Shown: positions 1-39,343 of the stretch, piece by piece
How positions within the stretch are numbered: the stretch's first letter is position 1
How the letters are laid out: each line of letters starts with the position of its first letter
Assembly (NCBI RefSeq): GCF_000621865.1
Contig: NZ_KK211358.1
Span: 279,047-318,389, forward strand
DNA: 39,343 bases
Origin: Pseudobutyrivibrio sp. MD2005
GTDB lineage: Bacteria; Bacillota; Clostridia; Lachnospirales; Lachnospiraceae
Reading direction: 5' to 3'
Notes under the pieces: model-generated
What the model was told of the DNA's origin: nothing
The model's input: only the letters and a program-made list of their open reading frames with translations
Databases searched by the model: none
Translations under genes and position numbers: made by a program

Positions 1-269
1 TATAGTCACCTCTGCCTTTTGTGACTATATCTACTCGCTTTCCAGCTTTTCATATAGTCGCACCTCTCCTCTTGTGACTATATGATTGCCACTTCATGCT
101 CTTCATATAGTCTCCTCTGCCTTTTGTGACTATATCTTTTCACTTTCTAGCTTTTCATATAGTCGCACCTCTCCTCTTAAGACTATATGATTTCCGTCTT
201 AATACCTTTATATAGTCATCGTCTAAGAATGCGACTATAGATTTGCAAGTATCCCGCTTATATATAGTC
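1..269. repeat. Inverted-word array A (ATATAGTC / GACTATAT), period 52.5 bp
   Basis: ATATAGTC starts at 52, 105, 157, 210 and 262 (the first copy is clipped at base 1). Its reverse complement GACTATAT starts at 23, 76, 128, 181 and 233 (last copy GACTATAG). Outer spacing is always 29 bp and inner spacing alternates 23/24, so units alternate in an A-B-A-B pattern. Loops of units 1 and 3 end in GCCTTTTGT; loops of units 2 and 4 read GCACCTCTCCTCTT. The array starts before the window. 52.5 bp equals five turns of B-DNA, which would put every word on one face of the helix. No coding capacity is apparent and the period is not a multiple of three. Function unknown. Confidence 0.9.
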
Positions 270-11004: not shown

Positions 11005-11613
11005 GTTACCATTCACAGTTGCCATAAGGTTGGGACGCCCTCAACCCTGGCAGGGCCTCCACTATATACATGGCGCATTGCAAGAATATTGCGTTTTTCT
11101 AATGGGCCATTTATGCATCTTTATTTACATGTGTCTTTTGCAGGCCTGTACAATTTTGAAAAAGGTTTTTAGTTGGCGGACACACAACATAGTGGAAAGT
11201 GTACTTCTTAGACTGAGGGAAACTTGGTTGATTTTGGAGCGAGCCTAGTAAAATAAAAGCAGGTTTTGCAATATATAAGCATGCGCTGCCATGGACGGCA
11301 GCGCAAGTGGTCACTTAAAACACGATGTTGAATGTGCCACGGTGATTATATATGCAAAACCTGCTTTGTTATTTTACTTAGCAAACGGAGTATGAAACCA
11401 AGTTCCCTCAGTCTGAGAAGTACATTAAAAACTTAAGTGTCCGTCACCTAAAAAACATTTTTCAAAATGGTTCATTCCGCAACAAGACACATGTGCGATG
11501 CATAAAATTGGCCCATAAGAAAAACAGCAATATTCGCAAAATCACGCCATGTGTATAGTGGAGGCCCCTGCAGGGTTGAGGGCGTCTCTTCAAAACAAAC
11601 TGTGAATGGTAAC
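11005..11613 (+). mobile_element. Giant palindromic element, copy 1 (609 bp) with 8-bp target duplication
   Basis: A non-coding near-palindrome. It is bounded by the 16-bp inverted repeats GTTACCATTCACAGTT (11005-11020) and its complement (11598-11613). The flanks are a perfect direct repeat TCTTACTC at 10997-11004 and 11614-11621, the hallmark of transposition. The two arms, about 280 nt each, are complementary with bulges, like one long hairpin. Near the middle are a GCGCTGCC / GGCAGCGC hairpin (11283-11304) and a stem with AGCAGGTTTTGCA and its complement. Short ORFs inside simply read through the stems. It resembles a very large MITE or a structured RNA gene and has no transposase. Confidence 0.9.
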
Positions 11614-19075: not shown

Positions 19076-19104
19076 ATTGTACCACTTATTGCTCTAAGCT
19101 TCAA
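19076..19104 (-). promoter_or_regulatory. Promoter of the CoA-transferase gene
   Basis: Minus strand TTGAAG (19099-19104), 17-bp spacer, TACAAT (19076-19081). The -35 box overlaps the stop codon (TGA) of the zinc-ribbon gene upstream. Confidence 0.7.
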
Positions 19105-19967
19105 TTGTTTTCATCTTCTTCCGAGATATCCGCCTCTTCAGAGTTTTCAGCTTCCTCAGAACTCTCATCTTCTTCAGCGTTCTCGGCTTGCTCAGATTTC
19201 TCATCTTCCCCTGACTCTAGTTCTAAAGGATCCTCCATATCTTCAGGATTAGCGTCTTTGAAGATTTCTTCGTAAATACCATACCCTTCAAGAGTATCAC
19301 CATTCTCAAACAATTTATAATAATCATCAGGTATAGATGTTTCAGGCTCGTAATCTTCAATCGCTTTATCTATCACATCCCATCGCTTTTTAGACTGCTC
19401 ATAAGAATGATATTCTTCGTCCTTTGCAGCTAAATAAGAAAGGATTCCCATAATCAGCACCAACATAAACTTAATAATAGCAACCATTTTCTCGCCATCA
19501 GTCATAGCTTCGAATCTACCCATAAATCTATTTGTTTTACGAGGCTTGCTTGGGGTTGGCACCTGTCTGGTTGTTCTTTGTGGGGTTGGTTCATCCTGAA
19601 ATATCGTAGGCCTATTGTATTCTATCTTGTTTCTTTCAATTCTAGCTTTTTCTTGCGCTATTAATGCTTCCTGTTTTGTTATATATATCTGCTTTAATAC
19701 AGCAACAAGCTTGCGCTGGGCTATTTCTTTGCCTGGCTCAACAAGTACCTGCTCCTCTATTTGGGTACTTTTCTCTTTTTGGGTATCTTGCTCTTTTTGG
19801 TACTCTTGGTCTACTGGGGCATATGTTTGCGCTGGCGCAGGCACATTAACTGGCTCGCCCCAATTAATGCTACCGGTCACCCCTGTACTATAATTAACCA
19901 GAGCCCCACAGTTAAGACACATTATATGGCCATTTTCAATTTCTTTTCCGCAATTTTTACAAATCAT
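19101..19967 (-). CDS. Zinc-ribbon membrane protein with acidic tail, function unknown
   Basis: A 288-residue protein not matched to a named family. The N-terminal zinc ribbon is MICKNCGKEI..MCLNCG (two CxxC knuckles). A coiled-coil-prone Gln/Glu/Lys region (about 60-120) and a basic Pro/Thr segment follow. One membrane helix (about 165-185) comes next, then a soluble part, then a ~45-residue Glu/Ser/Ala tail with repeats of the EEAENSEEAD type. This is the common clostridial 'zinc-ribbon plus membrane' layout of uncharacterised envelope proteins. ATG at 19967 is preferred because GGA lies 9 nt upstream. A four-hairpin element occupies its 5' leader. Confidence 0.7.
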   Translation of the reverse strand: MICKNCGKEIENGHIMCLNCGALVNYSTGVTGSINWGEPVNVPAPAQTYAPVDQEYQKEQDTQKEKSTQIEEQVLVEPGKEIAQRKLVAVLKQIYITKQEALIAQEKARIERNKIEYNRPTIFQDEPTPQRTTRQVPTPSKPRKTNRFMGRFEAMTDGEKMVAIIKFMLVLIMGILSYLAAKDEEYHSYEQSKKRWDVIDKAIEDYEPETSIPDDYYKLFENGDTLEGYGIYEEIFKDANPEDMEDPLELESGEDEKSEQAENAEEDESSEEAENSEEADISEEDENN

Positions 19968-19993
19968 TATGTTCATTCCAATTATAGTTTTTA

Positions 19994-20114
19994 GGTTTTT
20001 GATTTTCCTCAGAAAATCAAGAACCGGACAAAGACCAATATTTTCTGCAAGAAAATATTGCTTGGCAAAGCCAAGTTCTTGTGGGCTTTTTCCTTAAGTA
20101 GCCCACAAGAAGTC
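19994..20114 (-). repeat. Four-hairpin element, copy E2
   Basis: Read on the minus strand from 20114, it begins GACTTCTTG. Stem 1 is TTCTTGTGGGCT / AGCCCACAAGAA, stem 2 CTTGGC-ttt-GCCAAG, stem 3 CAATATTTTC / GAAAATATTG. A GTCTTTGTCC linker follows, then stem 4 GATTTTC-tgag-GAAAATC inside GGTT / AACC. The same architecture, order and loop sequences recur at 23299-23420 with different stem sequences. It lies in the 5' leader region of the zinc-ribbon gene, in the sense direction, so it could be transcribed with it. It encodes no protein. Confidence 0.85.
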
Positions 20115-20164
20115 ATAATCAGTATTATTATACACAACTATTTATTAAATCATTAGTCAATATT

Positions 20165-20564
20165 GGCTAATCTTAAAATCATTTTCCATTTATCTTAGCC
20201 ACCGCTTAACCCATTAGGCTAATCTATTTCTATTTTAGCTGGTTTATTAGCCGCACCTGTTCCAATTCGGCTAATCTATTTCATTTACTCCTACCCGATT
20301 AGCCACTACTGCTCCTCTCTGGCTAATCTATTTCACTTACTCCTGCCTGATTAGCCACTACCTCTCCTCTTTGGCTAATCTATTTCACTTACTCCTCCAC
20401 GATTAGCCATCACCTCTCCACTTTGGCTAATCTATTTCACTTATTCCTCCCCGATTAGCCACACCTTCTACAATTCGGCTAATCTATTACACTTACTCCT
20501 CCCCGATTAGCCATCACCTCTCCTCTCTGGCTAATCCTTTTCAAATTCCAGCCCACGATTAGCC
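20165..20564. repeat. Inverted-word array B (GATTAGCC / GGCTAATC), exact 52-bp period, 8 units
   Basis: GGCTAATC starts at 20165, 20217, 20269, 20321, 20373, 20425, 20477 and 20529. GATTAGCC (the first two copies degenerate) starts at 20193, 20245, 20297, 20349, 20401, 20453, 20505 and 20557. Every step is exactly 52. Words are 8 bp, the loop is 16 bp (type ATCACCTCTCCTCTCT) and the spacer is 20 bp (type TATTTCACTTACTCCTCC). The pyrimidine-rich spacers are conserved across units, which excludes CRISPR. It fills the gap between the zinc-ribbon gene and the thioesterase gene. Confidence 0.93.
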
Positions 20565-23227: not shown

Positions 23228-23291
23228 TTAAAATTCACCGCTTACTGAAGATATTATTAATAAAACCATTGAAGCTTACCTGCTAGACAAA

Positions 23292-23682
23292 AAGGTATGA
23301 CTTCTTGCTGACAGAACAATGAAATTGTCAGCAAGAATCCTGCTTTGCAGGACATGAAAATAGATAAATCTATTTTCATGGTATTTACGATTCCTGAAAA
23401 ACTGATGTTTTTCAAGAATCTATAACCATCTACTATTTTTGCTCTTAGTTATACCTTGTTCGCTTCAATATAATGTCTCATCGCCCGCCAAAAGGTATAA
23501 CCTGACATAAAACCCCACTCTGGTTATACCTTTTTGACTTCTAAATAATGTCTCATCGCCCGCCAAAAGGTATAACCTGACATAAAATCCCATTCTGGTT
23601 ATACCTTTTTGACTTCAACATAGTGTCCTATAGCTCACCAAAAGGTATAACCACCTCCCATATCAGCCCATGATTATACCTT
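23292..23682. repeat. Inverted-word array C (AAGGTATAACC / GGTTATACCTT), exact 75-bp period
   Basis: AAGGTATAACC starts at 23492, 23567 and 23642; GGTTATACCTT (end copies degenerate) starts at 23447, 23522, 23597 and 23672. All steps are 75. Geometry is an 11-bp arm, 19-bp loop, 11-bp arm and 34-bp spacer. The first AAGGTAT/AACC word (from 23292) is split by the four-hairpin element. Subtracting that 125-bp insertion puts it exactly 75 bp before the next word. Confidence 0.92.
23299..23423 (+). mobile_element. Four-hairpin element, copy E1, inserted in array C with TAT duplication
   Basis: Body 23299-23420 runs from GACTTCTTG to CAAGAATC. Stem 1 TTCTTGCTGACA / TGTCAGCAAGAA has a 12-nt loop, stem 2 is TCCTGC-ttt-GCAGGA, stem 3 CATGAAAATAGAT / ATCTATTTTCATG. 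The linker is GTATTTAC, and stem 4 is GAAAAAC-tgat-GTTTTTC inside GATTC / GAATC. It is flanked by TAT (23296-23298 and 23421-23423). Precise removal restores AAAGGTATAACC and the 75-bp period. It has no coding capacity and imperfect inverted ends. Confidence 0.85.
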
Positions 23683-30622: not shown

Positions 30623-31248
30623 GTTACCATCCACTGCCGTGGTGTCTTTAGGCCGCCCTCCACCTGCCTTCACCTGCCACCGCCTACCGGCACACAAGGC
30701 ACATTGCATGAATATTGCGCTTTTCTAATGGACCATTCATGCATCTTTTATTTACATGTGTCTTTTGCAGGCCTGTACAATTTTGAAAAATGTTTTTGGT
30801 TGGCGGACACACAGCATTGTATAAATTGTACTTCTTAGACTGAAGGGGACTTGGTTGATTTTGGAGCGCGCTTAGTAACATAAAAGCAGGTTTTGCAATA
30901 TATAGGTATGCGCTGCCATGGACGGCAGCGCAAGTGGTCACTTAAAACACGATGTTGAATGTGCCACGGTACCTATATATGCAAAACCTGCTTTGTCATG
31001 TTACTTAGCAAGCGTAATATGAAACCAAGTCCCCTCAGCCTGAGAAGTACATTAAAACCTAAAGTGTCCGCCACCTAAAAAACATTTTTCAAAATGGTTC
31101 ATTCCGCAACAAGACACATGTGCGATGCATAAATTGGTCCATAAGAAAAAGCAGCAATATTCGCAAAATCGTGCCTTGTGTGCCGGTAGGCGGTGGCAGG
31201 CTAAGGCAGGTGGAGGGCGGCCCCATAATATAAACTGTGGATGGTAAC
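30623..31248 (+). mobile_element. Giant palindromic element, copy 2 (626 bp)
   Basis: Ends GTTACCATCCAC (30623) and its near complement finishing GGTAAC (31248). The core is nearly identical to copy 1, including the GCGCTGCC / GGCAGCGC hairpin and the AGCAGGTTTTGCA stem. The outer stem (about 50 bp, GC-rich, from GGCCGCCCTCCACCTGCC) differs completely from copy 1 yet pairs almost perfectly with the other end (right arm about 31175-31222). No target duplication is visible. It lies between the trxB promoter and the flagellin terminator. Open frames up to 85 codons inside are read-through of the stems. Confidence 0.88.
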
Positions 31249-38926: not shown

Positions 38927-39343
38927 GTTACCATTCACAGTTTACATATACTAATAGCCCCGCCCATGCAGTAGCCCTCGGGGCTTTGTGGGGGATGCAA
39001 TTTTGCGAATATTGCTGTTTTTCTTATGGGCCCAATTTATGCATCGCACATGTGTCTTGTTGCGGAATGAACCATTTTGAAAAATGTTTTTTATGGGGGC
39101 GGACACTTAAGTTTTAAATGTACTTCTCAGGCTGAGGGAACTTGGTTTCATACTCCGTTTGCTAAGTAAAATAACAAAGCAGGTTTTGCATATATAATCA
39201 CCGTGGCACATTCAACATCGTGTTTTAAGTGACCACTTGCGCTGCCGTCCATGGCAGCGCATGCTTATATATTGCAAAACCTGCTTTTATTTTACTAAGC
39301 GCACTACAAAATCAACCAAGTTTCCCTCAGCCTAAGAAGTACA
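38927..39343 (-). mobile_element. Giant palindromic element, copy 3 (partial, inverted)
   Basis: Begins GTTACCATTCACAGTT and carries the same core as copies 1 and 2 but in reverse orientation; it runs off the window end. Its outer stem (from about 38943, TAGCCCCGCCC) differs from those of both other copies. It abuts the promoter of the dlt-like operon. Confidence 0.85.

Follow-up and report, generated by a model that had tools for sequence, protein, structure and literature searches.

Helically phased arrays of alternating short words adjoin a family of nuclease-like genes in Pseudobutyrivibrio and other Lachnospiraceae

Arrays A, B and C in the window

The stretch of DNA analysed here, referred to as the window, comprises 39,343 nucleotides of Pseudobutyrivibrio sp. 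MD2005 (contig NZ_KK211358.1, positions 279,047 to 318,389). Three arrays lie within it and a nuclease-like gene is found just outside its left edge. The window's own genome (G000, 3.09 Mb) was compared within a set of 29 Pseudobutyrivibrio genomes of which it is one. The features are as follows.

Window 1-269, no strand: array A, word TATAGTC/GACTATA (8-mer ATATAGTC), period 52-53 bp, continuing beyond the left window edge.
G000:C2:277792-278604, minus strand: nuclease-like gene of array A (270 aa), just outside the window, with array A upstream of it.
Window 20165-20564, no strand: array B, word GATTAGCC/GGCTAATC, period 52 bp, gene-less.
Window 23421-23682, no strand: array C, word GGTATAACC/GGTTATACC, period 75 bp, gene-less.

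Array A contains 11 copies of TATAGTC/GACTATA, spaced 22-23/30. At array B, 15 copies of ATTAGCC/GGCTAAT are present, in which a first step of 52 is followed by a spacing of 23/29. When 8-bp words are considered, the units consist of an arm of 8, a loop (15-16 in A, 16 in B), a second arm of 8 and a spacer (21 in A, 20 in B). An earlier interpretation made from the letters alone (the sequence-only reading) had described an 8-bp arm, a 15-16 nt loop and a 20-21 nt spacer, and the measured units agree with it. The word was also said to be coherent on both arms, and the two arms do agree in nearly every unit of A and B. The first units of B (20165-20244) are degenerate, the next unit starts with TATTAGCC, and the array is regular from 20245. 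Independent change of the word from unit to unit was not observed.

A and B had been taken as one frame with the word exchanged. The frame is indeed shared, but the words are not unrelated and differ by point changes: from the outer edge GGCTAATC and GACTATAT have G-R-CTA in common, and contig C14 carries the intermediate GACTAATC. The loop text reported as common to the two arrays is real: an exact match to CACCTCTCCTCT is found at three places in the genome (3.09 Mb), two of them in A and one in B. With one mismatch it is found at 12 places, 5 of them in arrays, compared to 8 places for the reversed pattern, and the shared text by itself is therefore modest evidence. What stays constant across arrays is the helical spacing described below, not the loop text.

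The word of array B is also present at both ends of contig C14 and, as TATTAGCC, at C9:118.8 kb. The pattern GATTAGCC-N10..22-GGCTAATC occurs seven times in G000, always in arrays (5 in B, 2 at the C14 ends), and its mirrored control 0 times. Among the 28 other genus genomes it was detected in two, at one place each, and inspection by eye showed no array at either place. Beside the GATTAGCC arrays close to the two ends of C14, GC-rich repeats with GCGAGAC were seen by eye (L111 200-500 and the end of L114). The idea that C14, with an array at both ends and perhaps circular, is a plasmid or carries a centromere was rejected, since its genes look ordinary and chromosomal when their translations are read by eye.

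The different period ascribed to array C proved real, at 75 bp with the word GGTTATACC. The same word and period are found again at two other sites, C10:14.3 kb, where a nuclease-like gene is adjacent, and C5:143.5 kb, where the array is gene-less. The units of array C and of the G025:C45 array are nearly identical.

A zinc-ribbon protein gene (window 19101-19976) adjoins array B, and a relative is present at the same place in G009; in both genomes it has a CoA-transferase gene on one side and the array on the other. The arrays upstream of the thioesterase gene that borders array B have the word TTCGTGTC in G009 and AGTATTAAA in G015. In G019 and G028 a family gene is located there with an array visible by eye, which in both genomes falls below the detector threshold. 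Neither the zinc-ribbon gene nor the array is seen by eye at this place in G025. A hairpin-rich intergenic element with interchangeable stems was noted by eye near array B (20000-20115) and adjoining array C (23290-23430), as well as beside several other arrays (loci L310, L314, L224 and L177). The two stretches in the window gave no Rfam match at the gathering threshold. Three TwoAYGGAY RNA motifs are also present in the window (11232-11393, 30859-31020 and 39150-39311).

Distribution and helical spacing of the arrays

Arrays A, B and C are members of a large class in Pseudobutyrivibrio and the Lachnospiraceae, a family of gut and rumen bacteria, in which each array repeats one word of 7-9 bp in alternating orientation. 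Covariance models detected further arrays in G000, G002, G003, G009, G010, G015 and G025; these models (R1 and R2) are biased to their source words, scored 150 candidates per genome and missed, for example, the locus-B array of G009. A word-agnostic scan of 54 stretches of 20 kb (1.08 Mb in all, seven genomes) yielded nine array calls, of which seven had regular spacing. With mirrored words five irregular calls were obtained, and with shuffles one. The three-word TATAGTC array pattern matched 8 stretches in a collection of 84,980 species from which the window's own genome was possibly excluded; seven are in Pseudobutyrivibrio, each with an array, and the eighth, outside the genus, is without one.

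At locus A the order is glycosyltransferase, array and 270-aa gene, with an orthologous array and gene in G002, G003, G009 and G015. Array and gene thus occur together in 5 of the 29 genomes. In the remaining 24, two of them covered over just ~300 bp at this place, no such gene was seen; three of these 24 gave irregular array calls. The word is TATAGTC in G000, G002 and G015, although the loops and spacers of these arrays are unalignable by eye; it is TATAGCA in G003 and TACTAA in G009.

The spacings cluster around 52, 62 and 73 bp, corresponding to 5, 6 and 7 helical turns. Same-orientation spacings of 30-90 bp in 20 array stretches fell at 51-54 (165), 62-63 (4) and 71-75 (25); seven others at 33-45 come, by eye, from degenerate units or shifted one-mismatch matches. 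In five arrays that mix spacing classes, one of the two gaps is fixed and the second differs by roughly one or two turns (15-16 to 26; 18 or 19 to 39; 17 to 36). The 75 gene-linked arrays (see next section) have peaks at 52-53, 62-63 and 73-75; minor peaks lie at 86 and 93-96, and doubled periods around 105. Values off the peaks, e.g. 40, 48-50, 58, 65, 78 and 83-84, were each seen once or a few times. The best period for these arrays was 10.6 bp (R 0.76, 191 array-spacing pairs), as against a jittered null with a mean of 0.16 and a maximum of 0.315. This spacing is close to the repeat of B-DNA, which argues for proteins on double-stranded DNA rather than for hairpins, and points to the arrays being sites on the duplex.

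A nuclease-like gene family and its words

One proposal of the sequence-only reading was that the sites are addressable and that diverging DNA-binding proteins of one family read them. Such a paralogous family does lie beside the arrays, its members presumably binding them: homologs of the array-A gene sit directly beside arrays with other words. They encode proteins of ~270 aa (full-length members about 260-290 aa) with a C-terminal PD-(D/E)XK nuclease-like domain, a feature that goes beyond the earlier proposal. A search seeded by an alignment of eight members found the family in 28 of the 29 genus genomes, with 174 matches as per-genome counts, nine of them in G000. Across the Lachnospiraceae it is present in 98 of 299 sampled genomes, two of the 98 from Pseudobutyrivibrio. 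The copies are patchy and diversifying among genomes.

Against Pfam the eight members had no significant match (best E 0.03) and against NCBIfam none, and at E up to 1 neither database returned an HUH/Y1 transposase of the IS200/IS605 kind. The C-terminal half matched the ends of the PADLOC PDC-S68 profiles in 8/8 members (best 3.8e-30) and HEAT_CxxC_PD-DEXK in 8/8. It also matched parts of proteins on seven plasmids, which are AAA ATPases or helicases where annotated (one record is unannotated). T7 endonuclease I (PDB 2pfj, 1fzr, 1m0d) was matched weakly over the motif stretch (E ~0.002) and was not found by a second profile. Residues R165, S166, E169, E186, P199, D200, E215, H216, G218, Y225 and E252 are invariant in 91/91 proteins and K232 is present in 89/91; the third nuclease motif is E-H-x-G, rather than E-x-K. 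The N-terminal half is more variable, with a mean entropy of 2.6 bits compared to 1.9 for the C-terminal half in the 91 proteins. A structure model from a thin alignment reached pLDDT 73-88 over about residues 151-240 and was poor in the N-terminal domain (block means 32-74, below 50 in long stretches). No fold is therefore assigned to the N-terminal domain, which may resemble the beta-sheet arm-binding domains of integrases.

Relatives were found at 10 loci in viral contigs, with the match limited to the C-terminal part. Three unannotated faecal phage records match the family, one over 81% of the protein at 34% identity. The TATAGTC array pattern occurred in 0 stretches of the viral contigs, in which single GATTAGCC pairs were present in 13 and single GGTATAACC pairs in 3; on these counts a phage or decoy-operator idea was set aside.

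Linkage of gene and array was assessed with a detector that requires an exact 6-mer to alternate at least three times within a segment made up of the 500 bp upstream and 30 bp of the gene. It was applied to 72 of the 174 genes, i.e. the best match of most genomes and further ones from eight genomes. An array was called upstream of 56/72 genes, downstream of 6 and on either side of 60, compared to 2 in shuffled upstream sequence; these counts are not independent, some genes having little or no upstream DNA and some being mutual orthologs. At the 28 best-scoring loci of other Lachnospiraceae genera, the array was upstream in 19, downstream in 4, in shuffled sequence 0 and on either side in 21. 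The detector gave no array on either side at 12/72 and 7/28 of these loci, respectively. Among controls, calls were made at 2/52 butyryl-CoA transferase locus flanks, in 37/2000 random segments and in 55/600 AT-rich segments, the last drawn from sequence that also contains real arrays. The gene-linked arrays are mostly upstream and end at a median of 34 bp before the start codon.

Of the nine family genes in G000, C5:353 is the sole one without an array, by detector and by eye over the ~350 bp upstream that are covered. The sequence preceding it (L312 1-320, contig edge) resembles what we take to be the start of an IS110-type transposase gene, and this IS110-like start may separate the family gene from an array. 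A further member with two in-frame stops (G000:C1:160782-161597, L224) is still beside an array, with the word ACGCTGTTT.

Gene lineages differ in their word. The check suggested earlier, a paralogous family covarying with the words, gave a positive outcome: the N-terminal domain tracks the word better than the C-terminal domain does, chiefly at N-domain identity of at least 0.5. For 77 protein-word pairs, word similarity follows the N-domain given the C-domain (partial Mantel r 0.31, p 0.001). Without this conditioning, word and N-domain are only slightly correlated when all protein pairs are taken (Spearman 0.08, Mantel p 0.014), and the coefficient is 0.03 for pairs below 0.4 identity. When only the 276 pairs with nuclease-domain identity of at least 60% are taken, which are not independent, the word is common to 53/73 with N-domain identity of at least 0.5 versus 11/203 below. 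The clearest case of an orthologous word switch is locus A of the sister species G002 and G003 (TATAGTC vs TATAGCA), where the N-domains are 47% identical, the nuclease domains 83% and the neighbouring protein 98.6%. At a gene-less array locus common to the two species, one part is TATAGTC and one TATAGCA.

The word of a gene-less array is often also that of a gene-linked one, a further point beyond the earlier proposal. Such a match within the same genome was found for 16/26 gene-less arrays and no match for 10/26; the 26 were found partly with word-biased models, and the family gene set is incomplete for some genomes. By word set, 11/18 were matched within the genome and 7/18 unmatched (against a mean of 3.4 over permutations, p 0.0002). 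Where a genome had at least four gene words (seven genomes), 12/19 arrays match their own genome, compared to 13/114 array-by-other-genome cells. Within G000, array C and the array at C5:143 kb have the word and the 75-bp period of the gene at C10, the C1:126 kb array has the word AGTATCACT in common with the gene at C5:98.8 kb, and the C7:75 kb array has GCTAGTA, as does the gene ~3 kb away at C7:78 kb. No reader gene for the array B word GATTAGCC emerged among the G000 family genes that have an array, and C5:353 is a tentative candidate.

Two composite gene-less arrays were seen. In G009:C37 (L172 9894-11027) the word shifts along the array from TATAGTC to CGCACTAAG and GTACTAAG, and in G002:C15 (L177 9208-10310) from TATAGTC to TATAGCA.

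Three gene-less array loci are known in G002, of which one is also in G003 and two were compared and are missing there. The two missing arrays are ~320 bp each. One block is bounded by the 7-bp direct repeat TATTATT, which is single in G003 and, being AT-only, possibly a chance occurrence; the other replaces ~30 bp that look like a terminator hairpin in G003. The two empty sites represent either gain in G002 or loss in G003 of an array as a block.

Twenty flanking or nearby proteins were scanned and had no common function, and regulation of one gene class by the arrays was rejected on this ground. No Cas family was present among the 20; one of them, beside the G025:C45 array, matches general methyltransferase families, a cognate methyltransferase next to the nuclease being what a restriction-modification system would have.

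Interpretation and relation to known systems

The arrays are most plausibly recognition platforms for word-reading nuclease-like proteins, with gene and array forming an autonomous unit and the gene-less arrays its satellites; we assign this reading a probability of roughly 0.72. What the sequences themselves show is gene-array linkage, helical spacing, word/N-domain covariation, word sharing within a genome, joint presence or absence at one locus, and two arrays that a sister species does not have. The variable N-terminal domain, joined to the conserved PD-(D/E)XK nuclease-like domain, would read the word. One site would be an inverted word pair about 35-38 bp long, and since the sites repeat at whole helical turns, bound proteins could lie on the same face of the DNA and act together. 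A gene with its adjacent array may constitute the autonomous unit, and arrays of the same word elsewhere may be its satellites. By analogy with REP/RAYT, the task of the nuclease is probably to act on its cognate arrays and so to spread or maintain them. Since cutting of its own intact arrays would sever the chromosome, the activity must be conditional.

The arrays could instead be operators, the nuclease-fold protein being mainly a transcription regulator of its own promoter and of other genes, with catalysis secondary or lost. The upstream position of most gene-linked arrays, so near the start codon, would suit this, as would the location of array B between divergent genes. The motif residues of the nuclease domain are however invariant in all of the 91 proteins, some genes have the array downstream, the genes on either side of one gene-less array are convergent in two species, and the 20 neighbour proteins have no function in common. 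We regard operators as an unlikely explanation, with some weight left to it.

Somewhat less probable is a role in defence, in which an anti-phage or anti-plasmid nuclease is restrained or silenced by the chromosomal arrays until invasion. The C-terminal domain is most like the PD-(D/E)XK domains of PDC-S68, HEAT_CxxC_PD-DEXK and the plasmid AAA ATPase/helicase proteins, and the patchy, diversifying copies are in keeping with such a role. The likeness to the PADLOC candidates is nevertheless limited to the nuclease domain, the viral contigs are devoid of the TATAGTC array pattern, and defence alone does not account for the gene-less arrays.

Stem-loops of RNA or single-stranded DNA, in which only base pairing is relevant, had been offered as the other possibility in the sequence-only reading, and are now disfavoured to the point of being very improbable. 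As single strands, the tested units of A, B and C are more stable than almost all of their shuffles (0, 0 and 1 of 200 reaching the same stability, respectively). For two diverged TATAGTC units the folding energies are only -1.7 and -1.8 kcal/mol; 10 and 52 of 200 shuffles, respectively, fold equally well, and one of these units does no better than shuffled sequence. No compensatory drift of the word is seen within arrays, the words stay fixed despite loops unalignable by eye, and the spacing follows the B-DNA repeat. Protein-bound, centromere-like sites that organise the chromosome are equally hard to credit: the phased clusters of inverted sites dispersed over the chromosome would suit them, but the locus-A gene is not seen in 24/29 related genomes and a single genome has several unrelated words. 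Neutral satellite DNA, whose words are kept uniform within an array by tandem duplication alone, would fit the near-identical units of array C and G025:C45 and is scarcely credible, as in other arrays word and period are preserved between loops and spacers that appear unalignable, the words go with linked genes and reappear at unlinked sites, and linkage and helical spacing contradict it.

The proposed recognition platforms for a word-reading nuclease-like protein resemble in several respects the REPtron, in which a DNA-processing gene (RAYT/TnpA-REP) lies beside its cognate repeats, the REP palindromes and BIMEs (PMC2817692, PMC8266576). In both, a chromosomal DNA-processing gene adjoins cognate palindromic repeats of alternating orientation; protein and repeat coevolve (here the N-domain/word covariation and the G002/G003 switch); and cognate repeats are dispersed in the gene-carrying genome (here 11/18 word sets), with several pairs per genome (PMC2817692, PMC8266576). 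RAYTs are HUH enzymes related to IS200/IS605 that process folded single-stranded REPs, whereas the domain here is PD-(D/E)XK-like (PMC2817692, PMC8266576). The repeat here differs from REPs in being a pair of short words in helically phased arrays, whose stems can be very weak. In the REPtron the RAYT gene is flanked on both sides by two inverted REPs, whereas here the array is mostly on one side (56 upstream, 6 downstream, n=72). Because protein family, DNA form and array geometry differ, the gene-array system is not a member of the REPtrons. The best reading, by analogy, would be a REP/RAYT-like pair built on an unrelated nuclease, for which we infer binding, cooperative assembly, cutting and movement.

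Other known systems share single features. PDC-S68 and HEAT_CxxC_PD-DEXK have a matching C-terminal nuclease domain, but the PDC-S68 profiles span ~1200 positions, of which only the C-terminal end matches, and members here have about 260-290 aa. T7 endonuclease I, with its weak match over the motif stretch, is a junction resolvase and, to our knowledge, is without an N-terminal word-reading domain and without arrays. In arrayed centromere sites such as sopC of plasmid F, short inverted words recur in tandem units spaced by whole helical turns. Here the proteins are different, the arrays are located at dispersed sites of the chromosome, a genome has several words, and a nuclease-like gene is linked. 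A CRISPR array has identical direct repeats and unique spacers of constant length, with cas genes nearby, whereas conservation here is limited to alternating words of 7-9 bp.

Among the matches listed from the open full-text literature, there was no description of such a system. We lean towards the view that this is an undescribed, widespread class of elements, comprising a nuclease whose swappable N-domain is directed to an 8-bp word, phased arrays, autonomous and satellite copies, and co-diversifying words and readers. The class would then be REPtron-like, with a nuclease of the PD-(D/E)XK type and with words that are read in double-stranded form, and would provide a natural catalogue of matched words and reading domains. 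If so, about a third of the sampled Lachnospiraceae genomes (98/299) would encode a protein of an unrecognised protein-DNA address system, and a class of intergenic repeats would be accounted for. The arrangement of nuclease and dispersed repeats known from REP/RAYT would have had an independent origin. The many natural pairs of reading domain and word, the orthologous word switch included, would make the recognition code directly testable.
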